From: Heliocidaris erythrogramma
Taxonomy: Eukaryota; Echinodermata; Echinoidea; Camarodonta; Echinometridae
Length of the DNA stretch: 64,000 nt
Direction of reading: 5' to 3'
NCBI GenBank assembly: GCA_025617745.1
Contig: CM046873.1
Coordinates: 29,897,410-29,961,409 of the forward strand
Of the stretch, positions 6,212-63,793 are shown piece by piece. Position 1 is the first letter of the stretch. Each line of letters begins with the position of its first letter. A program made the position numbers and the translations under genes. The notes under the pieces were generated by a model. The model saw only the letters and a list, made by a program, of their open reading frames with translations, had not been told where the DNA came from and made no database searches.

Positions 6212-6443
6212 TCAGCAAATGTCTGAGCTCCACCCGGATGAGAATATCCTTGAGATCAGTTCACTGAGACCAGTCCTAGTCATCCAAACGGCTAGACATT
6301 TTCTCGCAGCAACCTGATGATTCACTGCGGAATCTTTAAGATTCTCTTTGTATTGTAGCTGACACCGAGGTGTATTCTCCGTAGGCAAGTGTTTCTCCAG
6401 CTTCTCTAGTTTAATCTCAGTTTCAAGATCGCTCATATAGCAG
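6212..6443 (-). CDS. Death-domain terminal exon DD6 (second C-terminal option)
   Basis: Minus-strand exon opened by the acceptor CCCTGTAG at 6444-6451 in phase 2 and closed by TGA. It reads MSDLETEIKLEKLEKHLP... then AARKCLAVWMTRTG and ends SSDIC. The helix-rich pattern with a conserved Cys-Leu-x-x-Trp in helix 5 is that of a death domain, a protein-protein adaptor fold used in apoptosis and innate signalling. The entry phase equals that of the alternative terminal exon at 17831-18113 and fits the CA|GT donors of the Ser/Pro linker exons at 9158, 9780 and 12342. The domain is shorter than usual at its N-terminal side, so it may be degenerate. The assignment to the large minus-strand gene is inference from phase and strand. 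Confidence 0.65.
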
Positions 6444-6466
6444 CTACAGGGATATAACAGTGATAA

Positions 6467-6818
6467 ATGTCAATAAGATATTGAAGCCATTTTATTATGT
6501 ATTGTCAAAACCATTGCTAAAAGCTCGAGCATACCTGCCCATTCACGGTTTTGAATTCCCAAATGTTCGCGATCTATAAAAAATTATAGCGATCTTTACA
6601 ATGTGATCTTTACATAAGATATTACCACTAGAAAAAAATTCTTAATGTCAATAAGATATGGAAGCCATTTTATTATGTATTGTCAAAACCATTGCTAAAA
6701 ACTCGAGCATACCTGCCCATTCATGCATTTGAATTCCCAAATGTTCGCGATCCATATAGCGATCTTTACAATGTGATCTTTACATAAGCTATTACCACTA
6801 GAAAAAATTCTTAAATTA
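6467..6818. repeat. Recent tandem duplication, unit about 178 bp
   Basis: The segment beginning AATGTCAATAAGATAT at 6467 recurs at 6646 with only a few substitutions and small indels, through GCCATTTTATTATGTATTG, CTCGAGCATACCTGCCC, AATGTTCGCGATC and TTACCACTAGAAAAAA. It lies immediately upstream (on minus) of the DD6 exon. Confidence 0.9.
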
Positions 6819-7342
6819 CAACTATTATATTGCACATGTAATACAAGATGATAAAATGAATGCACAAACTGGGGTACTGTGTGACCACGTGGCAATGCAT
6901 TGCTAAATTGAGTGAACGCATTATGAATTACATGCAAGACGTATGAATTTGAATGAGAATAGTGAATTTGACTGACTTAATGTGGACTTGAATGCTTTAA
7001 GATGAATTTGAATGCACGGATCATGAATTTGAACTGCCGTATTGCACGGCTAGGCTAAAATCGATTATTAATATAATGCTTGTAACATGAATAAGATTGA
7101 GAACGTTACGAAATTGGCGGGGAAAACATATATATATATTTATTTATTATTTCCTTACAATATTGTTAATAATTATTCGAATGTATACATGTATCTCAAA
7201 GCATTCGCTTGGATCCAGCTGAGGCACGCGGCTTGTCTTTGTTCAAAACTCACCTGCCCCCGACAAAGGAATTAATTAATAAGGTTGAAGATTTGTCAAT
7301 CTGTCGGTCAATTGAATCTGGTGTCGTCGAAACCACTGACCC

Positions 7343-7413
7343 GTCTCCGTGGTCTAGTGGTTCAGGCATTGGCGTTCTAAGCAAACGACCCGGGTTCGAT
7401 TCCCGGCGGAGAC
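7343..7413 (+). tRNA. tRNA-like Pol III gene, anticodon TCT (Arg) by fold
   Basis: A 71-nt cloverleaf can be drawn. The acceptor GTCTCCG/CGGAGAC pairs perfectly. The D stem is GTCT/AGGC with one G-U. The anticodon stem TTGGC/GCAAA has one G-A mismatch around loop GTTCTAA, and the T stem CCGGG/CCCGG has loop TTCGATT. Box B is GGTTCGATTCC and a T6 terminator starts two bases after the fold. The anticodon in the fold is TCT, but box A resembles eukaryotic tRNA-Glu (TGGTCTAGTGGTT). The stem mismatch and the mixed identity leave open a tRNA pseudogene or the head of a SINE. Confidence 0.6.
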
Positions 7414-7511
7414 ATTTTTTCAGCCTTTGCAAAAAATTCAAAAAGGGAAGACAGCTCTGGGGAACCTTGATTTAAGTTACGCAACCATTATTCTCTCATT
7501 TCCTTTCACAT

Positions 7512-7532
7512 TATATATATATATATATATAG
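7512..7532. repeat. (TA)n microsatellite left of the foldback element
   Basis: Pure TA dinucleotide run; a second TA run (8921-8947) abuts the right arm of the palindrome. Confidence 0.9.
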
Positions 7533-7654
7533 TGGAAGAAATTTCCCAAGAGCAAAACACTGGCGGTCACTCATAGTTGTGGAATGGAATACAGCGAAAG
7601 AAATGGACTATGAAATGGCCGTAGCTTCTATACTTCTCTTTTATTCAATCAAGC

Positions 7655-7678
7655 TTTCGATCTAAAGATCTTCATCAG
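7655..7678 (-). ncRNA. Hammerhead-ribozyme-like core, left palindrome arm
   Basis: Minus strand shows CTGATGA, a stem-loop GATC-TTTA-GATC, then GAAAGCTT. This is the CUGANGA / stem II / GAAA core of a hammerhead ribozyme, and the AGCU that follows would form a minimal self-complementary stem III. Stem I pairing is only about three base pairs, so activity is uncertain. Confidence 0.4.
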
Positions 7679-7810
7679 GATGACTGTGTAAACAAAATAC
7701 ATAAGTACAATATGATGGCTGAAATAAAAAATATATAAAATAAAGTAAAGTTTAACTCTTGATTACTTATAATTTGGTTATCATTAATGTTAAAATTAAA
7801 TCGTGATGTA

Positions 7811-7993
7811 CTACTTCTCGTTCTCTACTGCTAAACACATTATTCTAGTAAAACTGCTACTACCGGGCACGTATCTGATCTTTGTTCCAAATATATCTTT
7901 ATAATAACTATCAGCACCATAACTGCTTATTACATATTTAAAATCAGCATAAAAGTGTGACAACAATTCATTTATATATGTGTATGTGTTCAA
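7811..7993 (-). CDS. 60-codon ORF in left palindrome arm, unrecognised
   Basis: Reads MNTYTYINELLSHFYADFK... and ends AVENEK. It is the mirror of the plus-strand ORF at 8519-8701, from which it differs by one residue (SSYGAD against SNYGAD). I do not recognise a family. Its integrity in both arms reflects how recent the duplication is rather than proof of coding. Confidence 0.25.
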   Translation of the reverse strand: MNTYTYINELLSHFYADFKYVISSYGADSYYKDIFGTKIRYVPGSSSFTRIMCLAVENEK

Positions 7994-8518
7994 ACTGAGA
8001 GTATAGAGTAATTAATAAGTATAGACAATGAGAACAAAAATTTACCATGTATAGAGGTTCAGAGTACTAAGAACTTCATCCCGTCTTTGATGAAATCAAC
8101 GGGTTTTCCATGAATCTATAGAGAAGTATTAACAAATTGTGTTTAATAAATTATATGATATATATGTATGTTATTATAGATAACATTTCAGTTAGGTAAG
8201 TGCATGTTCTGAATTAAGTCAATGTATGTAGAGTAACTAGGACACGGGTTTTCCATGAATCTATAGATGTCCTAGTTACTCTACATACATTGACTTAATT
8301 CAGAACATGCACTTACCTAACTGAAATGTTATCTATAATAACATACATATATATCATATAATTTATTAAACACAATTTGTTAATACTTCTCTATAGATTC
8401 ATGGAAAACCCGTTGATTTCATCAAAGACGGGATGAAGTTCTTAGTACTCTGAACCTCTATACATGGTAAATTTTTGTTCTCATTGTCTATACTTATTAA
8501 TTACTCTATACTCTCAGT

Positions 8519-8701
8519 TTGAACACATACACATATATAAATGAATTGTTGTCACACTTTTATGCTGATTTTAAATATGTAATAAGCAATTATGGTGCTG
8601 ATAGTTATTATAAAGATATATTTGGAACAAAGATCAGATACGTGCCCGGTAGTAGCAGTTTTACTAGAATAATGTGTTTAGCAGTAGAGAACGAGAAGTA
8701 G
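8519..8701 (+). CDS. 60-codon ORF in right palindrome arm, unrecognised
   Basis: Mirror copy of the ORF at 7811-7993; see that entry. No domain recognised. Confidence 0.25.
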   Translation: MNTYTYINELLSHFYADFKYVISNYGADSYYKDIFGTKIRYVPGSSSFTRIMCLAVENEK

Positions 8702-8832
8702 TTCATCACGATTTAATTTAACATTAATGATAACAAAATTATAAGTAATCAAGAGTTAAACTTTACTTTATTTTATATATTTTTTATTTCAGCCATCATA
8801 TTGTACTTATGTATTTTGTTTACACAGTCGTC

Positions 8833-8856
8833 CTGATGAAGATCTTTAGATCGAAA
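8833..8856 (+). ncRNA. Hammerhead-ribozyme-like core, right palindrome arm
   Basis: Plus-strand mirror of the 7655-7678 motif, identical in the core and stem II. Confidence 0.4.
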
Positions 8857-8916
8857 GCTTGATTGAATAAAAGAGAAGTATAGAAGCTACGGCCATTTCA
8901 TAGTCCATTTCTTTCG

Positions 8917-13283: not shown

Positions 13284-15190
13284 TTTCATTCATTTCATTC
13301 ATTTCATTTATTTTCCATTTTCAACAGAATATAACGTAATTACATCATAAATAATATCATGAACCATTTTCAACAATATAAAGACAAACGTAAATACATC
13401 GTAAATAATATCATAAACAAAATGCATGTAATAACAATTATTTTCATTCAGCGTAATTTAAAAAAAAAAATAATATATAAATGCTGAAAATGGAGGGGAA
13501 TGCTAAAAAGCAAGGCTTGTATTTTGCAAACCCCTCAAAAAAAGTATACATTAAAAAAAAATACATACACACCCTAACACCCCCGCATACACCAAAAATA
13601 ATAACTGCAACACCTCCCTCCCCCCAAAAAATTAACTTATCGCCACAGAAAAGAGAAAAAAGAAAACGACGAACGAAAGAAGACGGACAACACCAAAGAG
13701 AACAAGGAGAGAGAGAAACAAAAACAAAAACAAAAACAGAAACAAAAACAAAAACATACACACACACCCAATGGAAATAACAAAACAAAAGAAAAACAAA
13801 CAAAAAGAACGCTGGCTTATTATAGAAAAGAAGGAAAGATAGATATAGAGAGCATGCGCAGTATTGGGGACGAAACACGATTTGAAATATGAAGCAAAAA
13901 TTGAATAAAATTATAACAGAATGCAGGATGCAGAATTAACAGAGAATTTACCATAAGTCATGGGGATGATGATGATTCCATCTAAAAGTTTTAAGTTTCA
14001 ATCAGTCAGTTTCCTACCAAGAATCAATTTGATTCCCGGTAAGAAACCAAAAGAAAAGTCTTTAGTTGTTTCTTGAATGAGTGTGAACTGGGAGCATCTT
14101 TAATATTCGAATTAAGATTATTCCAAAATTTTGGTCCGGTGAAAGTAAATATAGATTTTGTGAAGATAGTTCTAGTAAGGGGTAAATGAAATTCATTTGA
14201 TTGTCGTGTGGAGTATTTATGAATAGCCATATTCTTACAAAATATATCACTGAATAGTGCAGGTAACAAATTATTATTTAATTTATACATGAACTGACCG
14301 AGATTATGACGATACAAATGTATTTTTAAGATTTTATTTTCAAAAAATAGTGGGTCCGTGTGTGATTTCCAGGATAGATTTGATATGATACGGACTGCCT
14401 TTTTCTGTAATAATAGGATTCTATCAAGATAAGTAGAATGTGTGTTGCCCCAAGCAACTAAACCATAATATAAATAGGGCAATATTAATGTAGAGTATAA
14501 AGTTAGAAGAGTAAATTTTGGAAAATAATTCTTTAATTTATTTAAGACTCCTATATTTCGGGAAATCGTTTGACATACACTGTCTACATGGGATTTCCAA
14601 GAGAGTTTATTATCTATGATTAAACCTAAAAATTTCATGGAAGAGACTTCCTCTATAAGCATATTATCTAAAATGATATTATCGGGTAAATTATTTAAAG
14701 AGTTACTGAATGTCATTAGTTTAGTTTTCTGAAGATTGAGGGACAGTTTATTGGCTCTTATCCAATGAAGTAATTTTCTGAGCTCAGAGGTTAAAACATT
14801 TGCCATTGTATGAGGGTTAGTGTGCGACAAAAAAACATTAGAATCGTCGGCAAACAATATGAAAGAAAGGATATCTGAAGAATTACTAATGTCATTAATA
14901 TATAAATAAATAAATAACAAGGGGTCAAGCAAGCTACCCTGAGGAACACCACAACTTACAGATAATTTGGAAGAACACTGACCATTTATGGATACAAATT
15001 GCTTTCGATTTGTAAGGTAGCTCCTGAACCACTCCAAGGCCTTCCCGCGGATACCATAATGGTTTAATTTGTGTAAAAGAATTTCGTGGTCAATGGTATC
15101 GAAGGCCTTGGAGAAGTCCAGGAACACACCCACAGTGTGTTGAAATTTGTCAATTGCTTTGGCAGCTTTATCAATAAAGGTAAGAATAGC
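13284..15190 (-). mobile_element. 5'-truncated non-LTR retrotransposon (CR1/Jockey group)
   Basis: Minus-strand LINE whose coding part is 14024-15178, followed by a 3' region ending in an ATTTC/ATTC-type simple repeat at 13284-13312, the usual microsatellite tail. Similarity begins abruptly near 15180, as expected of 5' truncation. A C- and A-rich stretch at 13560-13760 lies in its 3' part. Confidence 0.75.
14024..15133 (-). CDS. Reverse transcriptase fragment of a CR1/Jockey-group LINE
   Basis: An uninterrupted 369-codon frame; the frame is open upstream to about 15178 (IDKAAKAIDKFQHT). RT landmarks in order are LDFSKAFDTIDHEILLHKL (RT motif 3), GVPQGSLLDPLLF (motif 4), FADDSNVF (catalytic block, with Asp-Asp), KTKLMTF, and FLGLIIDNKLSWKSHV. 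The C-terminal part has the YSTLILPYLYYGLVAWG and KKAVRIISN blocks of this group. The catalytic block is FADD rather than the common YADD, and LLDP replaces LLGP. The endonuclease is missing. Same family type as the plus-strand fragment at 52.6-53.5 kb. Confidence 0.9.
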   Translation of the reverse strand: MGVFLDFSKAFDTIDHEILLHKLNHYGIRGKALEWFRSYLTNRKQFVSINGQCSSKLSVSCGVPQGSLLDPLLFIYLYINDISNSSDILSFILFADDSNVFLSHTNPHTMANVLTSELRKLLHWIRANKLSLNLQKTKLMTFSNSLNNLPDNIILDNMLIEEVSSMKFLGLIIDNKLSWKSHVDSVCQTISRNIGVLNKLKNYFPKFTLLTLYSTLILPYLYYGLVAWGNTHSTYLDRILLLQKKAVRIISNLSWKSHTDPLFFENKILKIHLYRHNLGQFMYKLNNNLLPALFSDIFCKNMAIHKYSTRQSNEFHLPLTRTIFTKSIFTFTGPKFWNNLNSNIKDAPSSHSFKKQLKTFLLVSYRESN

Positions 15191-15584
15191 ATGAGAATAG
15201 CATCAGAGTAGTATCATTGGATTTCTTCGTTGATTACGATTAACATCCTAGATCTTTGGAATTATCAATTATGTGTGCTTTTACATCGCAAGGAGTGATG
15301 GAATATCTTTTGGGGAAATGTGCAATATTATGAGCGTTTTCTAACACACCTTTCCACGTGTTCGTTTCTTCACGCCGAGCTCGGCACCGACACAGCTAAG
15401 TATAGATATCGCGAACTCAGCTCTACGTAATTTCCAGTGACGCGATTCTATGCTACACTACAGTCAGCCTAGATTCTACGGTACACTTTATTATCACCGT
15501 CAATTGACTGCACTTGGGATTCTTATACGGTACCAGTTGTGGTGAGTAGGATATTTGTCTTATGCATTTTATTTTTCCTACATG

Positions 15585-17830: not shown

Positions 17831-18113
17831 TTATTTAAGTGTGTTGGTGTATATTGATAGTACATACTTCCATATACCGCCAAGTTTACTCGTCTCAAGG
17901 ATATTCTTGAGCTCGGCCAGATTACCACCTGTTCTTGACTTCCACTGTGCTAAGCAATCCCTTGATGCTTGCTTGTAGTCCTTAAGGCACGTTGCTAGGA
18001 TTGCTTTTGCCTCGTTGTATTCTTTGCCAAGATGACCGCACAACGTGTAGTATTCGTCAGTAGGAATGTGTTTGGACAGCTCATCCAGTTGTCTATCTGT
18101 CACTTGTTTTCCT
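17831..18113 (-). CDS. Death-domain terminal exon DD5 (first C-terminal option)
   Basis: Minus exon with acceptor ATCAACAG and stop TAA at 17831-17833. The phase-2 reading begins GKQVTDRQLDELSKHIPTDE, then YYTLCGHLGKEYNEAKAIL, then ASRDCLAQWKSRTGG, and ends YTNTLK. It is a full-length death domain of about 80 residues with the conserved Trp in helix 5. Its start (A|GGAAAxxAA after the acceptor) matches the start of the DD1 exon at 63793, so the two exons are homologous and share phase. Joined to linker L1 (39656, CA|GT) it would give ...PSLQGKQVTDRQ. It offers an end for the ZU5-UPA protein alternative to DD6. Confidence 0.8.
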
Positions 18114-22484: not shown

Positions 22485-23990
22485 AAAGTTCTGCAATTCA
22501 ACTTTGAGCCTTGATATCTTTTTGGCGGCTTTTTAATCATTTTTGATTTTTAGATCATTGGAAAGTTCATTTATCCCCTTCACATCCATGCCCCATTTGT
22601 AATGGTTATGTCATCCTTGAATGCACAGCACCCCTGAATAGATGGCAAAGTCAAAAGTGAAAAGTTGCAAATTGAATGGCTATCTTGGCTATTGTCTATT
22701 GCTTTTGTTGCAATGTCGGGTGTGTGTGCATGATGTTGAATGGGTCATGAATGATTCAACAAGTTTATTTCCTGTTTGGTAGATGAAATGTGCCTTGCAC
22801 AAGCTTTATGCTTGGCAGTGCTTACTTTTAAAGAGTAGCTTATCATCGTTGATGGAAACCTGACAGCAGAGAGATACCGAGACAACATCCCATACATGCG
22901 CAATCTTGGACCAAACGCCATCTTCCAAGATGACAACGCCCGCCCACACAGAGCAAGGATCATCACCGAATACCTGCAGGAGGAGGCAGTGACGAGGATG
23001 GATTGGCCTGCGAACAGCCCTGACTTGAACCCAATCGAGCACCTGTGGGACCAGTGTTGAAGTGACAGATCACACTACACTGGCTGAGTTGCTACAGATC
23101 CTTATCGAAGAGTGGAACCTCATCCCACAGCAACGCATCACCAGGCTGGTGACAAGCATGAGGAGGAGATGCCAGGCTGTCGTAGCTGTATTCGGATCTT
23201 CTACTCGCTACTGAACTTCTGATCCTTTGCTATGCCACATTTGATGTGCATGTTACTCAATAAAAAGTGCCAAACATTTTGTCATTTGCAAATTTGTGTA
23301 TTTGTGTTTGTTTTTGTTTCGTTAGTGAGGGGAGAGAGAGTTAAAGAACATGAGTTCACATCAAGAAAAGGGAATGTGTTTGTTGAAGTGAAAAGCAATC
23401 CAAGAGAAGAGGAGAGTTTGTGTTGCTTATGTTTCTGTGATAGGGTTACATGGCTGAAAAAGAGATAATTTGCTGAGGGGAGACTTTTTTCCCCACCGCA
23501 GTTGTGTACTGCTAAGGTGGAAACGTGCAATATTCTGCATGAAACCAAAACACAATATTAATGTTATCACAATCAGTTGCTGATTAAAACACATTCCATC
23601 TTAAAACAAAAGAATAATTCCACTTCAAAATCACTGAAAACAATATTTGTCCACCAAACAAGGGATTACAGCAGAAACATGCACACCTATAATACAAAAT
23701 TAAGCAAACCAAAAGGAACAAAAACAAAAAAACAAAACCTTTCATTCCAGTTAAGAACTCAGTGTGAACAATAACAATGCATTCTGCAACTTTTCACTTT
23801 TGACTTTGCCCTATATTTATGTGCACTGCACATTCCGTGATTACATAATCAATACATATGTGGTATCATTGTGAAGGTGAATAAACGAGCTTTACAATGA
23901 TATCAAACTTGATGATGATCATAAGTTACTAGAGAGATATAAATGCTTAAACTTGAATTTGAAGTGTTTATATACGTTCTGGTCCGATAA
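22485..23990 (+). mobile_element. Tc1/mariner-type transposon with long inverted repeats, decayed
   Basis: Inner parts of the terminal inverted repeats match perfectly for 26 bp (22644-22669 against 23785-23810, GGCAAAGTCAAAAGTGAAAA). Weaker inverted similarity extends outwards for more than 100 bp on both sides (ATCATTGkAAAG, CCTTCACA, GAATGyrCAG) to an end near CTGCAATTCAA. A broken DD34E transposase lies between. A single end of the same family is at 16.3 kb. Confidence 0.8.
22851..23214 (+). pseudogene. Tc1-type DD34E transposase, C-terminal fragment
   Basis: Reads GNLTAERYRDNIPYMRNLG, then IFQDDNARPHRAR, then WPANSPDLNPIEHLWDQ and a stop. After a short gap it continues in another frame TLAELLQILIEEWNLIPQQR to a final stop at 23212. 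Counting from the catalytic Asp of DDNARPH to the Glu of NPIEHLW gives 34 residues, the Tc1 spacing. The N-terminal DNA-binding region and the first catalytic Asp are missing, and the internal stop with deletion makes it inactive. Confidence 0.9.
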
Positions 23991-28226: not shown

Positions 28227-29477
28227 TTAAAAGAAGACACCACTGACAAATTTTAGCACTTTCACAATGTTTAATGTTATAAAACTAGTCAGATTGACCA
28301 AAAAACTCATCGCTCAGGTCGATAAAATCATAGATCTCGATTAAAAAAAAAAAAATATTACAATATCTACTAGTACGAGCCGCAAAAATCTGTTACGTCA
28401 CTGCAGCACTACTGCAAATACCACGGTAATGCCGATATGGAGCAATACACAGATCGCTTTCTCAGCGCCTATAAAAATGCTATTTGTGAGACAATTATGT
28501 ATGACAAAACGAAAATGTTATTAATTGTTCAGTTTTTTTGTATTTTTGAATATTATCTGCTGAAAAAAGAAAGTGCTTTAGCAAAATTTTTCACAATTTA
28601 TCGAATTAATAAAATTAAAATTGGCACTACTGTTTGTCATCGTTCGTACGTGCTTCCCATTAACGCATGTACTTTAAGGCACGTGCGGAAAGCTAATGCA
28701 GCAAGCTGCATTGTTTACGTTCTTACGTTCGCGATATAGATAGCAAGTACGACATTAACATAAATTCCTGGTTAATCTTCAAGTAAAATCTGATCACATT
28801 CTTCAATAAGCTTGTAATCTAAGCTAAGGAGATGAATGAGGGATTTTCTGGGCGAAGAAAGATTGCTTGCTTGTAAAGATTTTGTGGGAGAATATGGTTG
28901 GTACAGCATCGGGCTTTAGCAGCTTCCTGGGTTTGTATCCCAGGCACACGGCTTATAGTTGGTCTCGAACGCCAAAACGTCAAAATGGTCTTCACAGACC
29001 ACTCGAAAACGGGAATAAATGTACGTTTTGACGTTGAATTTGGTTGTTCCAATGTTCCTTATCCATACAGCACACCTTTCTCTATCCTTCTTCGGATCAG
29101 GGATGGCAAAAAAGGATTTTCCCGGACAATTTCACGACGATTCGAACAGTAAATTGCGTGGCACAACGGCATTTTTGCAACTCCACGAATATGACTGTAT
29201 GCATGCTATATATATGCGCTATCGTCTGCTTTTACGGACGCGTAACGCACACGCATTGTGGTGGAAACCAGGTGGAAACTCAAAGTGCTGCAATAACGTC
29301 ACAGCTTTGGCCGACACGAGCCAATTTGCGTATCGTCAGTGGCAAAAACATACTCTTTATATCAAAATATACGCACTTGTAGGCTGTTCAAAAATTACAA
29401 TTTCGATACTGATTAGTTCCTAGGGACATGCAGAACAACATATTTTTTTCAAAATTTGCAGTGGTGTCTTCTTTTAA
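28227..29477 (-). mobile_element. Kolobok-like TTAA transposon with THAP exon, copy 1
   Basis: The element 28231-29473 is bounded by inverted repeats AAGAAGACACCACTG(A)CAAATTTT and flanked by TTAA on both sides. A second copy lies at 44509-45690. The minus strand carries a THAP domain start (MPLCHAIYCSNRR...) from about 29171, but one base is missing after NRRE relative to copy 2, so the frame breaks. Relative to copy 2 it has about 115 extra bp near 28870-28985. THAP zinc fingers plus TTAA targets point to the Kolobok superfamily; piggyBac uses TTAA but not THAP. Too short for a transposase, so non-autonomous. Confidence 0.85.
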
Positions 29478-33752: not shown

Positions 33753-33780
33753 GATAGCACTCTGAGTGCAGTCCCTATGC

Positions 33781-37738: not shown

Positions 37739-38043
37739 TGGGTACTTCCAATAGTCCTTAAAATTACTGTTCCCCAGGTGGGTGTACTTCCCATGGTCCT
37801 TAAAAGAACTGTTCCCCCAGTGGGCTGATGAACTCAGATCATCCTCTCCTGCCAGTCAACTGCACCTGGACCCTGAAAGTAGTGTTTCAATAGGTTGTGC
37901 TGCTTCTTGGCCTCTCTAGTGTCCATGTTGCCTCCCTGGACACGCTGGCAATCATCCATCTGAGCACCTTCTCTCCAAGCCACAGGAACAAGGTTGTGAG
38001 TCGGATCTTCTGCATCAAGGATGTGGTTCTGTGGACCAGGGTA

Positions 38044-39044: not shown

Positions 39045-39655
39045 CTGTCTGTTGAGCTCCAGCAGCTCCTGCGTCAGTTCTACCTCTTTCTACCCTCCTA
39101 TTTATATGATTTGTTGGACACTCTTCAAATGACCCTGTCTACCCTTCTCTATCCTTATCGACCCCTATTAATTCCTTATCGACCCGGTTTGACCCGTATT
39201 GACCCGTATCGAACCGTATAAATAACAGCATTAGTAGGCCTATATCCGTATCGTAAATACCTAAAAAGCATTTTGAGATCCATTCTAATATTTGGAAACA
39301 AATGTACATTAACCTTTAAAAAATATACAAGTATGTTTTCAAAAATCCTTACGAAATTGTATTCAGTTCTGTAATTCCCTCTCTATTGCTATTGCTATAA
39401 TTGGAAATAAGATGGAAACATGCAATCAGTAACCTTGGCTATAATTATGCTTAAAATTGAAATTTATTTAACTTTATTCCTTTCCTAAATATTTCCATTT
39501 CCCTTTGAGATGCAAGGAATGAAGTATGTTTTGTCTATTGATCAGTCACGGCATTCAGGTTGCCGTGATATCTCAATCATTTTCAAAGGTATAATCTGTT
39601 ATTATTATATGAAATGCACTAATCACTGTATCTTTATCAAAATAATAAAACATAC

Positions 39656-40275: not shown

Positions 40276-40459
40276 TATATGTTAGAATGGAACGAAGCTC
40301 AGTTTTCTCAGGATTTGAGCGGTCAGTTTGGTCAGGGTTATAGGTGCCTTGATATAAGACGAATTTGAGAAGTCTTTGCTTAGCATCTGCCTCTGATGGT
40401 TTGACCCAAAACGATTGTGGGTCGTGAGATACTCGATGGAACCTTTGTTCACTCATCCA
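40276..40459 (-). CDS. UPA domain 2, third exon (184 nt)
   Basis: Acceptor TCCTGCTCCACAG, donor ATA|GTAAGTATT. Reads WMSEQRFHRVSHDPQSFWVK, PSEADAKQRLLKFVLYQG, ending ELRSILTY. Phase 0 in, 1 out, the same phases as the third exon of UPA 1 (56529-56682). RLLKFVLY aligns with LNFELQF there. The UPA domain packs against ZU5 in PIDD, UNC5 and ankyrin and helps keep the death domain in check. Confidence 0.75.
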
Positions 40460-41534: not shown

Positions 41535-41669
41535 CATTTCTTTAACTTCCACTTCATGTTCATTTTGACTTTCAAAAAGTGTAATAACGACATCTCCTGA
41601 CCTCCATGCTACAAACAGTGGTTTAGGTGGGTGAAGCCTTTTGTAATCTTTCATTTCTGCTTCCACTAC
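41535..41669 (-). CDS. UPA domain 2, second exon (135 nt)
   Basis: Acceptor TTCTTCCAAAAG, donor ATG|GTAAGTTT. A 45-codon exon, phase 0 to 0: VVEAEMKDYKRLHPPKP, LFVAWRSGDVVITLFES, NEHEVEVKEM. It has exactly the length and phases of the second UPA-1 exon (56888-57022). The KxxxFxVxxxxxxxxxL spacing fits UPA beta strands. Confidence 0.85.
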
Positions 41670-43050: not shown

Positions 43051-43292
43051 CCTCTTGACGCCAGAGAGGTCGTCATATATGTAGAGTAGAACCGAGTGTG
43101 CGAGTCCCTTCTTCACGGGTGGTAGTACATATGGCGTGCAGTTGACTTTCTTTCCAACGAAGTATCGTTTGAACTGGGCCACAATCCACCACTGACAGAA
43201 GTGATCCACATAGAGATCCAGGTCCTTCGTTCTGACGTCACAGCGTGGATAACCTTGGGTTGATGCAGGAATTCTCATAAAACTTTTCATGT
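43051..43292 (-). CDS. UPA domain 2, first exon, with HFC site (242 nt)
   Basis: Acceptor TTTAAATAG, donor AGG|GTGGGG; phase 1 in, 0 out, as in the matching UPA-1 exon. Reads MKSFMRIPASTQGYPRCDV, then LYVDHFCQWWIVAQFKRYF, CTPYVLPPVKKG, and HSVLLYIYDDLSGVKR. The HF-C-QWW stretch (codons at 43195-43203) aligns with HFSWYW of PIDD, where the Phe-Ser bond is cleaved by the protein itself; Cys instead of Ser would still allow an N-to-S acyl shift. LLYIYDD is the usual UPA strand before the VVEAE helix encoded by the next exon. Confidence 0.85.
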
Positions 43293-44508: not shown

Positions 44509-45690
44509 TTAAAAGAAGACACCACTGACAAATTTTAGCACTTTTACAATTTTTAATGTTATAAAACTAGTCAGATTGACCAAAAAACTCATCGCTCAGG
44601 TCGATAAAATCATAGATCTCGATTTTTTAAAAATAAATATTACAATATCTACTAGTACGAGCCGCAAAAATCCGTTACGTCACTGCAGCACTACTGCAAA
44701 AACCACGGCAAATCACGGTAATGCCGATATGAAGCATTACACAGATCGCTTTCACAGCGCCTATAAAAATGTTATTTGTGAGATTATTATGCATGACAAA
44801 AAGAAAATTAATTTTAATAAAGTTATTAATTTTTCATTTTTTTGTATTTTTGAATATTATCTGTTGAAAAAATAAAGTGCTTTAGCAAATTTTTTTTACA
44901 ATTGATCGAATTAATAAAATTAAAATTGGCACTACTGTTTGTCATCATTCGTACGTGCTTCCCATTATTAACGCGTGTACTTTAAGGCACGCGCGGAAAG
45001 CTAAATGCAGCAAGCTGCATTGTTTACGTTCTTACGTTCGCGATATAGATAGCAAGTACGACATTAACATAAATTCCTGGTTAATCTTCAAGTAAAATCT
45101 GATCACATTCTTCAATAAGCTTGTAATCTAAGCTAAGGAGAGGAATGAGGGATTTTCTGGGCGAAGAAATATTCCAGTGGCATATGACTTTGCTCCTCGT
45201 CTTCGCCGTCAAAATGGTCTTCACAGACCACTCGAAAACGGGAATAAATGTACGTTTTGACGTTGAATTTGGTTGTTCCAATGTTCCTTATCCATACAGC
45301 ACACCTTTCTCTATCCTTTTTCGGATCAGGGATGGCAAAAAAGGATTTTCCCGGACAATTTTCACGACGATTCGAACAGTAAATTGCCTGGCACAACGGC
45401 ATTTTGCAACTCCACGAATACTATTGAGCTGTATGCATGTGAATATTGTCTGCTTTTACGAACGCGTAACGCACACGCATTGTGGTGGAAACTCAAAGTG
45501 CTGCAATGACGTGACAGCTTTGGCCGACACGAGCCAATTTGCGTATCGACAGTGGCAAAAACATACTTTTTATATCAAAATATACGCACTTGTAGGCTGT
45601 TCAAAAATTACAATTTCGATACTGATTAGTTCCTAGGGACATGCAGAACAACATATTTTTTCAAAATTTGTCAGTGGTGTCTTCTTTTAA
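44509..45690 (-). mobile_element. Kolobok-like TTAA transposon with THAP exon, copy 2
   Basis: The element 44513-45686 has the same inverted repeats as copy 1 (AAGAAGACACCACTGACAAA) and TTAA at both sides. It carries an intact THAP ORF on minus. Relative to copy 1 it lacks about 115 bp near the 3' side of the THAP exon, and it has other small indels. Confidence 0.88.
45133..45402 (-). CDS. THAP zinc-finger ORF of the Kolobok-like element
   Basis: An 89-residue frame starting MPLCQAIYCSNRR. C2CH ligands are visible as C4, C9, C60 and H63 (VVCEDHF), with the usual SFFAIPDPKKDRER loop and invariant Trp at W37. THAP domains bind DNA in P-element and Kolobok transposases and in host regulators. 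After the finger the protein runs only to QKIPHSSP and stops, so no catalytic domain is joined; it may be the first exon of a longer transposase lost by deletion. Copy 1 has a frameshift in the same exon. Confidence 0.85.
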   Translation of the reverse strand: MPLCQAIYCSNRRENCPGKSFFAIPDPKKDRERCAVWIRNIGTTKFNVKTYIYSRFRVVCEDHFDGEDEEQSHMPLEYFFAQKIPHSSP

Positions 45691-51374: not shown

Positions 51375-51605
51375 CTTTGCTACGGGTGTAGAAGAAAATT
51401 TCCGCCTGTCCTGGATTGGTGAAATGTGCATTATGGTCCAACGTAACCTTCACAGGTTTGCTGAGTTTGGCTCCAGAAGGAGAGAATCTGATGCCGCATG
51501 ATATTACTGCCTCATCTTCTTGGAGAATAAGATCAGCAGGAGTGACTGTGATGAACTCATAGCGCACTACACTTTCTCCTTCATCATGAGGAACCGTTCC
51601 TTGTG
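51375..51605 (-). CDS. ZU5 domain 2 exon (231 nt)
   Basis: Acceptor AATTTAAAG, donor CAAAG|GTGAACC, phase 1 to 1. Reads QGTVPHDEGESVVRYEFITV, LQEDEAVISCGIRFSPSGA, KLSKPVKVTLDHNAHF, ending IFFYTRSK. The S-x-x-x-CG...G-x-x-L-x-K/PV-x-x-x-L-x-H stretch is the second half of a ZU5 fold. At 77 codons it is shorter than ZU5-1 (111), missing the first strands, which may lie in an exon not found in the 51.6-56.5 kb intron. It is followed by the UPA exons at 43.2-40.3 kb and joins the UPA-1 third exon in phase. Confidence 0.8.
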
Positions 51606-54057: not shown

Positions 54058-55495
54058 AACATTTTCAATTCAATTCAATTCAATTCAATTCTTGTTTCAC
54101 CATCTATAAAAATAACACTGCATTGGTAAATACAATACAAAACAAAAAATGAATCATTTAAGAATACTTTATGACAATGAAAATGGTGCACTCGAATAAG
54201 GCCTAAAACAGTGGCCTTGTGTGATGAGTGACCAAAGGAAGTACAAATACTAAATAATTGAAAGCAAAACAAAACAAAACAGACACACACAAAAAAAGAA
54301 CTATAACATAAACGTGACAAATGTCTAATAAAAGGACGAACGATATTCATGATATTGGATTGCAGCTAAGAACTTAAATATTTAGCCATAAGATATGTCT
54401 TCAACAAATTTTTAAAAGTTTTAAATTATTACAGGAACTAATGTCTTTTGGGATTGAATATCATACATAAGGGAAATTATAACGAACAGATTTTTGAGCA
54501 AATGTACTTTTTACCACCAATCGATGAAATTGACTGTTATTACGAGTCTCATAATTATGAATTTGTTTATTAAGTAGAAAACATTTCACAAACATTATTT
54601 GGTAACATATTCTTGAAATAAAAGAAGCCTAGCAGAGCAAAATAATATGTATATAAATCAAATATATTAAGTGTTTTCAATCAATAGAATAGCGGTGCTG
54701 AATGTGAGAAATAATTACTACCTGTACATATACGAAGTGCCTAATTTAGTTTGACTACAATTCCCCATACTGTAATACAATAAGTGAAATATGGGAGAAT
54801 AAGCGCATTATATAGCATAAATAGGGCAGATTGTGGAAGAGTACTCTTTAGCATATAAAGAATGCCTACACATTTAGATACCTTATTTACTATACTCATA
54901 TTGTGACTATCCCAACGTAAATTGCTTTGTATATTAACTCCCAGAAAAGTTACAGTGTTAACTTTACTTAGTTCAATAGAATCAAAGGAGAGTGAGAGAC
55001 TGGATATGTCATGATAATATAAGTCGTTACAAAATACAGTATAAGTTGTTTTTCTAAAATTGATCAGTAATCTATTTCGTTGAAACCATTTATATACACT
55101 ACATAACTCATTGTTAACATTTGCATTGATATTTATGAAATCTGACTGAGAATAAATCAACGTAGTATCATCAGCATACATTATATAATCAAAGGAACTA
55201 GAACTTTTAACAAGATCATTGATATAAATCAAAAATAATAATGGCCCTAATACAGAGCCCTGTGGTACTCCGTGTGTTATCAAAGATTGATTTGATGAAA
55301 AATTATCATAACAAACATATTGGTATCTATTACATGAATAATTTTTAAACCATTCCATGGGAGTGCCTCTTATACCATAGTATTCTAGTTTGGCTAACAA
55401 AATACCGTGGTCTACTATATCAAAGGCCTTTGTTAAATCCATAAAATTACCGATTGCGAACTTATTATGTTCAATTTTCAAATGAATTTTGACGA
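54058..55495 (-). mobile_element. 5'-truncated LINE with (GAATT)n tail
   Basis: Minus-strand element with RT coding part 54741-55481 and a 3' end in (CAATT)n on plus at 54066-54090. The long 3' region 54090-54740 is AT-rich with remnants of the RT C-terminus. Confidence 0.75.
54741..55481 (-). CDS. Reverse transcriptase fragment of a Jockey/CR1-group LINE
   Basis: A 246-codon open frame: FMDLTKAFDIVDHGILLAKL, GVPQGSVLGPLLFLIYINDL, IMYADDTTLIYSQSD (catalytic Asp pair intact), FLGVNIQSNLRWDSH, LYNALILPYFTYCITVWG, then a stop in place of the C-terminal part. Family type differs from the 14-kb copy in its tail and divergence. Endonuclease missing. Confidence 0.9.
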   Translation of the reverse strand: MKIEHNKFAIGNFMDLTKAFDIVDHGILLAKLEYYGIRGTPMEWFKNYSCNRYQYVCYDNFSSNQSLITHGVPQGSVLGPLLFLIYINDLVKSSSSFDYIMYADDTTLIYSQSDFININANVNNELCSVYKWFQRNRLLINFRKTTYTVFCNDLYYHDISSLSLSFDSIELSKVNTVTFLGVNIQSNLRWDSHNMSIVNKVSKCVGILYMLKSTLPQSALFMLYNALILPYFTYCITVWGIVVKLN

Positions 55496-56528
55496 ACCCA
55501 ATCAGGTGTCTTTTTACTTGAGAAAAGGAGTGTAAATGAGGCGGAATACTTATTCCGAAGGGAACTTTTCCAGATGCCCAATCATTTTTTAGTTATCGCC
55601 TGAAATGTATCAAGTTTTGTTCGTTGAACGCATAGTTTTGACTCTCCGCGCAGCTTTGGCTCGGGGCGCGCGTTTTATTTACCAAACACTACGCTATGGG
55701 TGTTGGTCTCAGCGACTACAGTGAGTAGTCAGTTTCCCTCTTGGCTCCCACCCCTGGGGAATTCTCGCTACCTCAAATATGCAATTTTCGACGTACAGGG
55801 CAATATTATGCATGGAAATGGTCCGCATCTTCGTCAACTTCACTTCCGGTCCGTATTGAAATACTACGGCTTATGAATAAAATGAGTGCTAAAATGCTGT
55901 ATTTTTGGATCGCATGACATATACCACTCAAATTTTGAAAACAACCAATTGTCTCAATAAATCATGATGGTATCTTTTCAAACATGTCGGTTAATTTCTA
56001 CTCAAACTCGAGGATTTTTGTAATACCTCTTTACATTTTGTCAACTTGTCAACCCAATCGGGATATTGTCAGCACTGCGCATGCGTGGTTTGCATGACAA
56101 ACGCCATCTGTTGGCGAAATTGCGTATTTGGGGTAGCGAGAATTAGACGACTACAGTCACCTTCACCGAAACCATAGATTAACTAGATTTTCGAAAGGCC
56201 GTATATTTTTGTATAACATGTGCTTATTTTAGTCCACGATGGAGGTTCAAACCATGGTTTAGACCATGGGTTAAATTTAAACCTTCTGGCCGGTATCCTG
56301 ATAGCAGGTTCAATTTAACCTCACACTAAAATTAACCCGAGGTTATTAATGAATGTATAAATGACGAATTTTTTGGACTATGTTTGGTCTTACTACTTTG
56401 CAATTTTGGAGAATATTATTTCTTGCAATGATTAGCGCTAAAACGGCTTTTCATTTGGATGTTAAAGGGATGCGTCTATGAGGAAGAATTGGATGATGCC
56501 AATCTGCTACTTATGAGTGGGAGCATAC
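55496..56528. other. Intron, no element recognised
   Basis: No coding exon could be supported. A small imperfect palindromic patch rich in GGTTTAAA/TTTAAACC lies at 56230-56340. Confidence 0.45.
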
Positions 56529-56682
56529 CTTTAATTGTTGTGGTGAACTGTTGTTCCAGGAGAGTCGAAGTGCCTTGCTCAATCTGAATACCAATATTCT
56601 TCTTTCCTTTCTCCGCCGGTGAAAACTGAAGCTCAAAGTTCAACATGCTGCATTCCTTCTTCAGCAGATGGTTGACAGGAAC
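56529..56682 (-). CDS. UPA domain 1, third exon (154 nt)
   Basis: Acceptor AAAATAAG, donor AAAG|GTATGC, phase 0 to 1. Reads VPVNHLLKKECSMLNFELQF, SPAEKGKKNIGIQIEQGTST, LLEQQFTTTIK. LNFELQF and IGIQIEQG fit the last beta strands of UPA. The exit phase matches the ZU5-2 exon at 51605 (junction codon GCA), which supports a tandem ZU5-UPA arrangement. Confidence 0.8.
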
Positions 56683-56887: not shown

Positions 56888-57022
56888 CACTTCCATGGTC
56901 TTGTTTGAACCGTCGAGACACGAGACGGAGAGATCCTTTGTGGTTGATCCTACTGAGAAATCGGTTGCTTTCATCACCCGGCAGAAAGGTTCTGATGATT
57001 CCTTCTCGTCTCTCTCGATATC
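56888..57022 (-). CDS. UPA domain 1, second exon (135 nt)
   Basis: Acceptor GATCGAAG, donor GTG|GTCAGTA, phase 0 to 0, exactly 45 codons as in UPA 2. Reads DIERDEKESSEPFCRVMKAT, DFSVGSTTKDLSVSCLDGSN, KTMEV. Another frame is also open across most of the exon, but only this one continues into the next exon. The equal length and phase to 41535-41669 is the main support. Confidence 0.8.
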
Positions 57023-57857: not shown

Positions 57858-58042
57858 TGTCACATATCTCCTGTAGGGATGAGCGATGTATACATGCAGT
57901 GTTGGTTTCTGAGAATGAGGGATGGATAGAGGTTGGAAGGCTACACATCTGAATCGAACTCCTTGAACATTGGTGGATGACAAGGCACAGAGTTGAAGGT
58001 GGCGTGTGGCAAATTCAATTCTGTCGTTTGAGATGCGGAAAC
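57858..58042 (-). CDS. UPA domain 1, first exon (185 nt), HLQ at the PIDD site
   Basis: Acceptor AAACCAACAG, donor ACA|GTATGTAA, phase 1 to 0. Reads FRISNDRIEFATRHLQLCAL, VRFRCVAFQPLSIP, TLHVYIAHPYRRYVT. RIEFATRH is a strong UPA signature. The position of the PIDD His-Phe-Ser cleavage site is HLQ here (57993-58001), so self-cleavage is unlikely at this copy. This exon bridges the phase-1 donor of ZU5-1 and the phase-0 exon at 57022. Confidence 0.75.
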
Positions 58043-58690
58043 CTGTTGGTTTACGTGGAAGCAAGGTTCGGCGACCGAATGTTCCTTTTGAAATGATGAA
58101 TAATTTTTAAAAACTTTGATTAAGGGTCAAGCCCACAATGTGTAATCAAAATGTGATGCATGTATTGATTTCAAAGACTTATTTTGAAGAGATATATTTC
58201 TATGAGTTGAAATTATACTTGTACATTATCATGGCGTCATTACTTATCAGATGTGTGTTCAATCTTCTATAATAAAAATGGATGTATACGCGCAGCTCTT
58301 CCAAGATGCTGGGGGAAAGTTATAATGGGCCGTAACTATAAAGCAAGCAAGAGCTCAAATCTCAAGCAAATACTTGATGATGAAACCTATCTTTCTATTC
58401 AAGCAAGTAATTGCCAGTCATGGGAAAGCATTTTCTACAAAGAAAAATGTCCTTTCTATTGTTTGCTAGCGAATGCAAGGCTTTTGCTAGTTTTAGAGAT
58501 ACGGACAAATATGTCTTTCCTCTCTGTGTTTAAAGGTGCATGTTAATACAAAGACACAAGAACAGTGGAAATTTAGGTACTAGATTTCATACAATTGATT
58601 ATAATAATATTAAATGGAAATTTCTTTCGTGGGAGACAAGGATATATATATATGCACTCGCGTTGACAGCATTTTACTCGTCGTGCCGAC
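58043..58690. other. Intron, no gene seen
   Basis: The 97-codon plus ORF at 58253-58546 has no recognisable domain and lies opposite to the host gene. Confidence 0.45.
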
Positions 58691-59356: not shown

Positions 59357-59689
59357 CTGGTCCTGTCTTGGTGTACATGATAGTACTTGAGACATCATGT
59401 TGCTGTGGATGTATGCAGTGAGGAAGCACTACCGTGGCAGGTTTGAGAAGTTCGTGAGGTAGAGAGCACTCTACGACCGGAGTAATCAGCACCTCTCCCT
59501 CTTGAAGGGGAATCCTATCACTGCAATGGCTAGGTACCTTAAGGGTAACTACAGATCTCATTCCTTTAGGTATAGCTCCTGAGGGAATAGAAATCCTGAT
59601 ACCCAGCTCCTCTAGCTTCAGCTTTCCACCCATGTGATCAATGGTGCTATGGGAAAGTAGATTCCCGAAGCCTTGATGGTCCTCCATGG
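59357..59689 (-). CDS. ZU5 domain 1 exon (333 nt)
   Basis: Acceptor TATCTTTACAG, donor CCAG|GTACGA, phase 1 to 1, 111 codons. Reads MEDHQGFGNLLSHST, GGKLKLEELGIRISIPSGAI, PKGMRSVVTLKV, EGEVLITPVVECSLPHELLK, PATVVLPHCIHP, ending IMYTKTGP. GG-x-L......G-x-x-I-x-IP-x-GAIP...P-x-V-x-C-x-P...L..PV.L..PHC is the ZU5 consensus of UNC5, ZO-1, PIDD and ankyrins. It follows four death domains, the reverse of the usual order (ZU5-UPA-DD) in known adaptors. Confidence 0.95.
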
Positions 59690-59981: not shown

Positions 59982-60233
59982 CTGTTGCTATTTTGCCAGC
60001 TGCATCGTTGAGACGGAAAGCGCGAGTAACCTCCAGAAGTCTTTCTCTCATGCCTTCTTTTTGCACCCATCCTTCAAGCATCTGGAGAACGCTACCCCGT
60101 ATCAAGTGAGAGTAAGAGCATTGAGTAGTAGTGCATATGGCATGCATGACGTCAGTAGTCCCTATGTTGAGACGATGAGACAGCTGGAGCAAGTCTGCTT
60201 TTGTACAAATTTGTTTGCAGATTTCCTCCCGGC
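59982..60233 (-). CDS. Death-domain exon DD4 (252 nt)
   Basis: Acceptor CTTGCATAG, donor ACAG|GTTAAA, phase 1 to 1. Reads GREEICKQICTKADLLQLSH, RLNIGTTDVMHAIC, RGSVLQMLEGWVQKEGMRER, LLEVTRAFRLNDAAGKIATG. The LsxRLnIgxxdv...QmLegWvqkeg pattern with the helix-5 Trp is a full death domain. It joins ZU5-1 in phase (GCC at the junction) and DD3 upstream. Confidence 0.9.
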
Positions 60234-60621: not shown

Positions 60622-60933
60622 CTGCATTACTGTCCTGAATGTTGTATTCCAGTAGAATCACTGTCATCAGATCGTCCCTGTCTTCGCTTTCTACACTATT
60701 CCACCAGCTGTTAAAGAGCTGTCGTGCAATCTTCTTCAGAACTCTTGGATTGGGTAGCTCGAGAAATTCAGCAATGACGTCATCGTGCAGACGCAGAGCC
60801 TTCCCCAGTTCCCACATCAACGACAAGCTTTGGAATGGAAGAGCGACGCTGCAAAGCTCCTCCGGACCAGGTTTACCTCCACATCGGTCGATGGACTCTG
60901 CCGGTGCAACTTGACTACCAATGAGGTCCGGGT
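60622..60933 (-). CDS. Death-domain-like exon DD3 (312 nt)
   Basis: Acceptor ATTACTTTAG, donor GCAG|GTTCGT, phase 1 to 1. Begins with a linker PDLIGSQVAPAESIDRCGG, then SLMWELGKALRLHDDVIAEF, KIARQLFNSWWNSVESED, LMTVILLEYNIQDSNAG. LGKALRLHDD and the helix-5 Trp-Trp indicate a diverged death domain. Junctions with the 61.4-kb linker (GAC) and DD4 (GGC) keep the frame. Confidence 0.85.
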
Positions 60934-61357
60934 CTAAAGTAATTATGCAGAATCTGGAGTTTTACTTAAATGTATTATCATTTTCAACTCGGTTTATGTC
61001 TGAAAGTGTGCGTAGGGATGACACTGTCAAGAGCGTCGCTAGATAATTTTGAATAGAAGATGAATGTGCTGGACCAAAATAACCGACAAACTTGCAAAAG
61101 TTGTCTAACGAGCAAAGCGAAATTTTTACATAAACACAATGAATGGGGATATTGGTTAAGAAAAGTCAGATTAACTGACTGACGTGTTTTTACTTTAAAA
61201 GAAGACGAACGATCTATTTCGTTTAAGGTGTAATTTTTGAGGACTCGTTTGTAATTTTCCGCTCATCCTCTGACCTTATATATGTAGTGGAATAAAGCTA
61301 AGATAATTCACATTAAAAAAAAAGAAGAAGATAATTCACATCAGTTGTGACACTTGC

Positions 61358-61474
61358 CTAGATCTGAAGTTCTAATGATCTCCAAATGCTCAGGATCTCC
61401 AGGCTCTGTACACTCGTTCATTTCTACATACGTTGGTGCAGACATCGCCTCTAAGTCATTCAAGCTTTCGTCAT
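61358..61474 (-). CDS. Acidic linker exon (117 nt) with a GC donor
   Basis: Acceptor TTTTGTTTTAG; 39 codons reading DDESLNDLEAMSAPTYVEMN, EPGDPEHLEIIRTSDL. The end is CTAG|GCAAGT, a GC-AG intron donor with otherwise ideal consensus. It is the only site that keeps the frame to DD3. Phase 1 to 1. A Tyr in PTYVEMN could be a phospho-acceptor, but that is speculation. Confidence 0.75.
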
Positions 61475-61740
61475 CTAAAACAAAACAAAAATAGTGTAGG
61501 AATAGCCTATAGGAGCAGTTAGTTCTAGTTATCCAAAAAGTCTTCACATGGATTATAACCATGATTCTTTTGTCAGAGAGCGAGAAAACATTATCAGTTA
61601 TTGTTGTTTCGGCCTTGTTCTACCTCTAAAAGGAATTTAATCCGTTCGACAAAAAAAAGCTATAAGTATTCATTTTTTAGTTATCGATCTCAATACCTTA
61701 TATCATATAGCTACATTGAATAAAGAATACACATTTATAC

Positions 61741-62000
61741 CCTCAGATTTCTCTGTCTTTTGTGCTGAGTGGACAGACTTCCATACACGCTTTAATGTCT
61801 GAATTCCTTTGGATATGGATGATTGAGCCGTTTTCCACATCGTCAGCATTTGGACATTCGCGTCTTTCCTTTCTGACAGCGTCCGATATTCCATATGTCG
61901 TAGCTCTGTGTGATCGAATCCAAGCTTCCCGCCAATCTCAAAGAATTTCTCAGGCTTGATCTGACGGCCGATTGCCATCAAGGTCTTATCAGGTATCTCA
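61741..62000 (-). CDS. Death-domain exon DD2 (260 nt)
   Basis: Acceptor TGATATGCAG, donor GAGG|GTATAA, phase 2 in, 1 out. Reads EIPDKTLMAIGRQIKPEKFF, EIGGKLGFDHTELRHMEYRT, NVQMLTMWKTAQSS, LKRVWKSVHSAQKT. The F-xx-IG-xx-LGF......Lx-MWK pattern is a clear death domain. The entry phase (2) does not match the DD1 donor (1), so a small exon must lie between; see 62954-62969. Confidence 0.92.
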
Positions 62001-62953
62001 CTGCATATCAATGAAATCATGCTTTGCGTTAAAGAGTAATATCTTTCCTAACTTCAGAGTGTACTTGTGTGTCCAGATATGCCACTGGACTAGATTTTTT
62101 TATCTACATTGCCACGTCATATCGAGGGAAAGCTATGGATCTACCAGAATATAATTATAAGCCCACTGTTCTGTATGCGTTTGTACGATAGTGGGATAGT
62201 GTCAATATATTTAGTAATTATTTCCCTATACTCAGAGCATTTGTAAATATTTATTTTCTCACAAAGGGGTCTATAAAATACAAGCTGTGTTTTTTAATAG
62301 ACTCCTCCAATTTTGTTTCTTTACTATGCCTAATATTACCGAAATTATGATAGTATATTGTTTATTATATGTAATTACTGTACTTAAAATTTTTCCATTT
62401 ATGTAAACATTTCTTATCGTAATCTTGTTTGATATTATGTTATATCAATATGTAAAACATTGAAAGGCATCATGTGGAAAATAAAAGAAACCTTGAAACC
62501 CTGATACAGAGAAGGTCTACTCGGGGAGTTTGGGGTCGTAAAAACACTTCATACTCTTCATACAGTTTGTTCCGTCCATGTTATGAAACCCGTTGTGCAG
62601 GTTTCAAAATATTGAAGGAATCATTTTGGTCACTTATCAAATGGAAATTTTCTCTGAATAGAATAATTCATGTAATTATTTATTTATATCATTATTGTTA
62701 TCAGCATTGTTATCAGCATTGTGATCAGCTTGCGACTATTATAGGCCTACTCCAAGAATCTCAACAGCCGCCCCATAATGTATCTTTCTATTTCCTCAAT
62801 TCATGTCGCCTTTTTTCTATTTCTCTTATATCTTCTTATATTCTCGTCCCCATCTGTACCTACTCTGCCCTTGCCACTTTTTAAATTTTCCCATTTGTAT
62901 GATGATAAATATGCAATTTTGATTAATATTCTAGAAAATGGAATTAATCTTAC

Positions 62954-62969
62954 CTCAACGTAGACACGT
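62954..62969 (-). CDS. Candidate 16-nt microexon between DD1 and DD2
   Basis: Minus: pyrimidine-rich stretch ending CCGTTGATAAG, 16 nt, then strong donor TTGAG|GTAAGATT. Length 16 (1 mod 3) converts the phase-1 donor of DD1 into the phase-2 acceptor of DD2 and encodes DVSTLS across the junctions with no stop. Found because the phase gap demanded such an exon; not proven. Confidence 0.45.
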
Positions 62970-63509
62970 CTTATCAACGGCAGGCAAATGGACAATGATG
63001 CAATGAAACGAGAAAAGTGTATTTAGAATAAGATTATAACAATTGATGAATTGGATCTCGCCCTATATAGGCCTACTCACTTAATGAATTTTCTTATAAT
63101 GTGTAAGTGGTGATCGAAATGCATTTTAAGTTAATCTATATTCATTCAAGAGCTCGTCTGGTAAAGAATTTCCTGGTCTCGTTGTATACATTACGCATAA
63201 TATTTTAAATCAGCGTTAAATTACCCCATACTTAATTCTGTCCTTTTAGTTCACGTTCAAGTCATTATCATTATCATAAATCTCTCTCTTTCGGTTGGTT
63301 GGGAATGCAGCCCACAATTTCTCTTGAAATTAACAATGTTAGAAGAACCTTGTCTTCGGGACCAAGGTGGTATAAACATCTTTATGACAAAATTTCATGA
63401 ACACTGAAGGAAATAAGTTTACGCTCGCTCGCAAAATTTAAAAGCGGTAAAGTTGAAAAATATCAACTCCTCTCCCTAGGAAATCATGCGCGTGATCCTA
63501 CGGTCTAAC

Positions 63510-63793
63510 CTGACAGCTCCACTTGTTCGACTGTAGTGTCTGTAGATTCAGTAAGTGACAGAAGCTGGTCCTTTGCGTTCCGGTCTGTTCCCTGTCCTTG
63601 CCTCCATCTCACAAGCATGTCTTTGATGGCCTGCTGTCTGTCTCTGAACCTCTGGTACTCGATTGCATCCAGCTGTTGCATGGTGATACCAAGAGCCACT
63701 CCCAAGTCATAGTACCCTTCTAGGGAGAGTTCTTCAGCAATCGTGTTTGTATCAGCATCAGACTGGTCACCATGAGAAACTTCTTTGTTTCCT
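63510..63793 (-). CDS. Death-domain exon DD1 (284 nt)
   Basis: Acceptor TAATTTAACAG, donor TCAG|GTTAGA, phase 2 in, 1 out. Reads GNKEVSHGDQSDADTNTIAE, GYYDLGVALGITMQQLDAIE, RQQAIKDMLVRWRQGQG, LLSLTESTDTTVEQVELS. DLGVALGI...AI-x-ML-x-RW is a textbook death domain. Because the acceptor is phase 2 it is internal, so the gene continues upstream beyond the window. Its first bases resemble those of DD5 at 18113, suggesting both derive from one ancestral exon. Confidence 0.92.

Follow-up and report, generated by a model that had tools for sequence, protein, structure and literature searches.

The order of a few death-domain adaptor parts sets which complexes form. Among the described systems, PIDD1 is reported, in the passages cited here, to have two ZU5 domains and a ZU5-UPA region that cuts itself; its UPA-death-domain end killed cells when overexpressed, whereas a longer fragment did not (PMC11637483). 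CARD8 and NLRP1 are described as cutting themselves at SF/S, with serine, threonine, or cysteine as a possible nucleophile in such reactions (PMC3210808). Ankyrin-B is given two ZU5 domains, and UNC5B is called autoinhibited, each in a title cited in PMC11585957. In marine invertebrates, expansions of the TRADD-N adaptor domain and its fusions to a UPA-ZU5 module have been reported (PMC8195603), as have death-domain hybrids in amphioxus (PMC2575513), in the parts of these sources used here. We analyzed a 64,000-base stretch (here, the window) of Heliocidaris erythrogramma (contig CM046873.1, positions 29,897,410 to 29,961,409; GC content 36.5%, zero N), whose minus strand holds a candidate gene for a ZU5-UPA-death-domain adaptor. 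A preliminary description of this locus started from the premise that known adaptors of this kind have one C-terminal death domain, which is too narrow: MACC1 has a ZU5 domain and two death domains, according to a passage of PMC11585957.

With moderate confidence, we interpret the locus as a minus-strand multi-exon gene that extends from E2 (about 62.0 kb) to E13 (40.3 kb), probably with a further exon, E14, at 17.8 kb, and that encodes a duplicated ZU5-UPA autoinhibited adaptor resembling PIDD and UNC5. The product is probably an intracellular ZU5-UPA-death-domain adaptor with a role in cell death or immunity. Its predicted layout would be a death domain, an acidic linker, two helical death-domain-like exons, ZU5-UPA, a partial ZU5-UPA, and a death domain. 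The exon blocks of the preliminary description are present with coding composition, 15 in number (E1 to E15, spanning 63.8 to 6.2 kb on the minus strand), but they can be joined into one protein only in part:

E1: 63510..63793, minus strand, death domain; phase 2 in, phase 1 out; Pfam Death 2.2e-5
E2: 61741..62000, minus strand, death domain; phase 2 in, phase 1 out; Pfam Death 0.0037
E3: 61358..61474, minus strand, acidic linker exon; phase 1-1; GC donor; codon usage equaled by 5/579
E4: 60622..60933, minus strand, helical exon; phase 1-1; codon usage equaled by 3/381
E5: 59982..60233, minus strand, weak death-domain-like exon; phase 1-1; Pfam Death 0.1
E6: 59357..59689, minus strand, complete ZU5 domain 1; phase 1-1; Pfam 2.4e-18
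E7: 57858..58084, minus strand, UPA-like block 1, exon 1; phase 1-0; assigned by position and phase
E8: 56888..57022, minus strand, UPA-like block 1, exon 2; 135 nt, phase 0-0
E9: 56529..56682, minus strand, UPA-like block 1, exon 3; phase 0-1; weak acceptor
E10: 51375..51605, minus strand, ZU5 domain 2, initial strands missing; phase 1-1; weak acceptor; Pfam 1.1e-4
E11: 43051..43292, minus strand, UPA-like block 2, exon 1; phase 1-0; contains DHFCQWW
E12: 41535..41669, minus strand, UPA-like block 2, exon 2; 135 nt, phase 0-0
E13: 40276..40459, minus strand, UPA-like block 2, exon 3; phase 0-1
E14: 17831..18113, minus strand, terminal death-domain exon with stop; Pfam Death 0.0073
E15: 6212..6443, minus strand, divergent relative of E14 with stop; phase 2; tblastn against E14 2.8e-5

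Together the 15 blocks comprise 1116 stop-free codons, and their GC contents of 0.38 to 0.50 compare with 0.31 to 0.36 in the flanks. We compared the codon usage of each block with that of background open reading frames (ORFs; n = 381, or 579 for E3), excluding the tested block. No more than 15 background ORFs equaled any one of 14 of the blocks; E7 had the lowest score, equaled by 48 of 381. In a codon-model scan of both strands, minus-strand segments above 17 bits comprised only exons of this set and three other stretches: a transposase block (37.8-39.1 kb), the strand opposite a DDE_3 fragment (22.8-23.1 kb), and the strand opposite a plus-strand ORF (32.8-33.2 kb). The scan cannot exclude more exons, because its model was trained on exons of this set and E7 and E12 were not among its 75 best segments.

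The 12 exons from E2 to E13 (62.0-40.3 kb) join through 11 of 11 phase-compatible junctions into an open frame, and with E14 they make a single open frame of 953 residues. The phase agreement is not an independent count, because splice sites were picked partly with phase in view. Sites were scored with our own simple consensus weights and ranked by percentile against AG (acceptor) or GT (donor) sites on the same strand. Among E1 to E13, 10 of 13 acceptors were at or above the 89th percentile, with E4 (74), E9 (39), and E10 (51) as exceptions; 10 of 13 donors were at or above the 95th, with E2 (80), E5 (82), and E7 (88) as exceptions, and E3 requires a GC donor. The earlier claims of good splice sites and compatible phases therefore hold for most sites and for E2 to E13, but not for these weaker sites, nor for E1-E2 or a direct E13-E15 join, and E13-E14 is doubtful.

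The joined chain contains one complete and one partial ZU5 domain. By its sequence, E6 is certainly a ZU5 domain, with PDB matches to ZO-1 (4e-8) and UNC5B (3.5e-5) besides its Pfam match. A search for E6 relatives in viral and prokaryote contigs gave 5 and 60 pattern matches, respectively, with zero confirmed. E10 matches ZU5 above the Pfam cutoff, falls below it when read within its long frame (0.0032), and resembles E6 (1 of 500 shuffles as good). The ZU5 histidine that matches UNC5B His-624 is retained in both. Behind each ZU5, where a UPA domain would lie, come three exons (phases 1-0, 0-0, and 0-1), of which the middle one has 135 nt. Identical phases and middle exons of equal length are what a duplicated ZU5-UPA module would be expected to show. 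Block 2 (E11 and E12) shows some likeness to a UNC5B UPA fragment, with 20 of 2000 shuffles as good at gap 11 and 3 of 2000 at gap 8. Of the two ZU5-UPA units proposed earlier, the repeated exon pattern stands, but the second ZU5 lacks its front and neither UPA is seen by Pfam.

Several observations weigh against a duplicated module within one gene. Neither three-exon block has a UPA match in Pfam or a relevant sequence match in PDB, and UPA is not proven from sequence. Block 1 is unlike UNC5B (739 of 2000 and 822 of 2000 shuffles as good), and the two blocks are unlike each other (760 of 2000 and 469 of 2000). E10 lacks the first ZU5 strands; it begins some 35 residues after the point where the E6 reading starts, and a search of the three minus-strand frames and splice-site candidates of 51.3-56.6 kb gave no exon for the absent part. 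The gap between E13 and E14 spans 22 kb with transposons and ends at a poor in-frame acceptor. E14 follows E13 in frame solely through this GAG acceptor at 18111 (phase 1; 23rd percentile); the CAG acceptor at 18113 (phase 2; 57th percentile), two bases earlier, is out of frame with E13. Four candidate linker exons with the needed phases were rejected in this gap: two lie opposite the frames of a long interspersed nuclear element (LINE)-like sequence at 33766-36889, one falls inside the transposase block (37.8-39.1 kb), and the fourth, 23599-23497, did not rank with the 75 best coding segments.

An alternative arrangement is two tandem paralogous genes, one comprising E2 to E9 (death domains and the first ZU5-UPA) and the other E10 to E14 (the second ZU5-UPA and a death domain), with a third, upstream gene owning E1. 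Shared phases would then reflect common ancestry and not one transcript. E9 and E10 are separated by 4.9 kb with a reverse-transcriptase fragment, and the absent front means that the exon preceding E10 is missing. The clash of E1 with E2, described below, also suits separate genes, and E1, E14, and E15 all fit phase-2 exons running into a stop. However, E9 exits and E10 enters in phase 1 with the frame open across the junction, and neither a start exon before E10 nor a death-domain exon after E9 was found. We regard tandem genes as possible, on the unlikely side.

The same gaps could belong to a decaying gene, that is, a former adaptor locus broken by transposons, with its second ZU5 front lost and its splice sites weakened. 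Dense transposon fragments, the missing front, the weak acceptors at E9, E10, and E14, and the shortened E15 are consistent with a relic. Decay is harder to reconcile with 1116 stop-free codons of coding composition in 15 blocks, and we consider it improbable.

The mobile elements and other features of the window were recorded separately. The E13-E14 gap contains the LINE-like element on the plus strand (33766-36889), with two overlapping frames that match Exo_endo_phos (2.2e-14) and RVT_1 (1.2e-30). Reverse-transcriptase fragments lie on the minus strand at 54741-55592, between E9 and E10 (RVT_1 3.7e-21), and at 14024-15202 (RVT_1 2.2e-23). The transposase block, 37834-39089 on the minus strand, is of DDE_Tnp_4 type (8.4e-17 for 38044-38355) and was the top coding segment of the codon scan; the DDE_3 transposase fragment is at 22839-23060 on the plus strand (1.2e-8). 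A THAP domain lies at 45133-45420 on the minus strand (1.2e-10), with a frame at 28819-29131 on the same strand that is nearly identical by eye. Two frames of 66 residues, identical but for one position (7811-8011, minus; 8501-8701, plus), form an inverted repeat about 0.5 kb apart. A tRNA-Arg (TCT) was found at 7343-7414 on the plus strand by ARAGORN and Rfam (52.5 bits).

The death domains are unequal in strength. E1 passes the Pfam Death cutoff, and E2 and E14 fall under it; the three are mutually homologous by tblastn within the window (3e-5 to 2e-3, including E2-E1 at 3e-5 and E2-E14 at 5e-4), and 0 of 500 shuffles scored as high. In PDB, E1 matched a PIDD chain best, but not significantly (0.17). 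We built a small death-domain profile from E1, E2, E14, and two PDB fragments. With this profile, 13 of 2000 shuffles were as good as E5, a weak result like its Pfam score, and 157 of 2000 were as good as E4, which has no Pfam Death match and whose identity as a death domain is unsupported by its sequence. Single-sequence AlphaFold models of E4 and E5 are helical with low confidence (mean predicted local distance difference test scores of 52.2 and 50.8). A fold search with the E5 model returned 38 matches at E <= 10, none at 0.001 and none labeled as a death domain. On the N-terminal side of the joined chain, E2 is thus solid, E5 weak, and E4 placed by position only. The preliminary description counted four N-terminal death domains, which we could not sustain, as E1 is also unjoined. 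The Pfam profile check that it proposed recovered Death in E1 and ZU5 in E6 and E10, but left UPA unmatched, E2 and E14 under the cutoff, and E4 and E15 without a Death match.

E1 leaves in phase 1 and E2 enters in phase 2, and a search between them for a bridging exon of 20-400 nt in suitable phases returned none, also after the thresholds were relaxed, so we rejected a direct E1-E2 join. The E1 frame continues to a stop codon at 63507-63505. E1 probably either closes an upstream gene as its last exon or serves as an alternative exon. The former is suggested because E1 runs into a stop, like the phase-2 exons E14 and E15; the first AATAAA after this stop comes only about 820 bases on, which is somewhat against a last exon. 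The latter could hold, since E1 and E3 are in frame, making E1 a possible alternative to E2. E2 itself has an in-frame ATG at 62020, preceded by a stop, and is possibly the first coding exon.

At the other end, joining E13 directly to E15 breaks the frame. Pfam gave no match for E15, which is not similar to E1 or E2; E15 is similar to E14 with a six-residue gap in the tblastn alignment, and it outscored 2000 of 2000 shuffles with the small profile. We interpret it as a duplicated last exon, either alternative or relic. The single transcript from 63.8 to 6.2 kb that was first proposed is therefore not supported at either end: E1 clashes in frame with E2, and the block at 6.2 kb does not continue the frame of E13. 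A common strand and order of all blocks and the homology of E1 and E2 speak for that full model, in which one transcript spans E1 to E15 and encodes four death domains on the N-terminal side. Set against them are the E1-E2 clash without a bridging exon, the E13-E15 clash, and E4, unsupported as a death domain; we find the full model extremely doubtful.

For the gene from E2 to E13, probably with E14, the most likely mechanism can be proposed by analogy with PIDD1, UNC5B, and CARD8/NLRP1. The ZU5-UPA modules would fold back and hold the C-terminal death domain silent. A partner, or a cut at a ZU5-UPA junction, could release the UPA-death-domain end, which would then assemble and recruit death-domain partners.

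Block 2 carries a DHFCQWW motif. In a phmmer alignment that is not significant (-3.2 bits), the phenylalanine of HFC aligned to UNC5B Leu-677. UNC5B was numbered by counting its 405-residue chain from 541, inferred from the length and an end at 945 given in an abstract; the same numbering also puts His-624 on the aligned ZU5 histidine. HFC falls in an insertion in the gap-8 alignment and in the alignment of the two modules. Its place on the cleavage position is uncertain, with one alignment for it and two others not. Block 1 has HLQ at a similar place, as judged by eye. Self-cleavage is a weak hypothesis, because the front of the second ZU5 is missing. A more elaborate multi-death-domain scaffold is one with two serial ZU5-UPA switches. 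The first would be unable to cleave (HLQ), and the second would cut itself at HF/C, with cysteine in the role of serine; the freed UPA-death-domain end would carry the last exon at either 17.8 or 6.2 kb, giving a single gene interchangeable death-domain outputs. Such a scaffold is conceivable and in our judgment very improbable.

Compared with the described systems, the putative adaptor shares with MACC1 a ZU5 domain with more than one death domain. MACC1 differs, in the passage cited, in having an SH3 domain and both death domains near its C terminus; neither that SH3 domain nor the SH3 domain of SH3BP4 has a match in the joined protein. The FIIND of CARD8 and NLRP1 is similar in its ZU5-UPA-like layout, and the ZU5 histidine is kept in E6 and E10. 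As described in the source cited above, CARD8 and NLRP1 have an SF/S site and a CARD; the joined protein instead has HFC or HLQ and death domains, with no CARD match. UNC5B and ankyrin-B are alike in ZU5 similarity and in the predicted order of ZU5, UPA-like block, and death domain. Pfam found neither the transmembrane part of UNC5B nor ankyrin repeats among the joined exons, which add a second module and extra death domains, and the ZU5-ZU5-UPA order of ankyrin is not seen here.

DTHD1, with its two ZU5 domains plus a death domain at the C terminus, would come nearest in layout, in which case the duplicated module would be less new. The passages on human DTHD1 that we found are silent on ZU5, and the two terms were not found together in the open-licence papers searched. 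The searches of those papers also showed no protein with the domain order proposed here, which may be annotated elsewhere.

PIDD1, as far as the cited passages describe it, resembles the putative adaptor in having two ZU5 domains; it also has a UPA and a C-terminal death domain, both predicted here, and a ZU5-UPA junction as a possible place of cleavage. Its leucine-rich repeats were not matched by Pfam in the joined protein from exons within the window. PIDD1 has serine at both cut sites (HF/S), in place of which we find HLQ in block 1 and an HFC of uncertain placement in block 2. Unlike PIDD1, with one UPA after two ZU5 domains, this locus has a UPA-like block behind each ZU5 and death-domain exons at the N-terminal side; such a duplicated ZU5-UPA with flanking death domains, if true, would be a natural test of ZU5-UPA as a repeatable switch.

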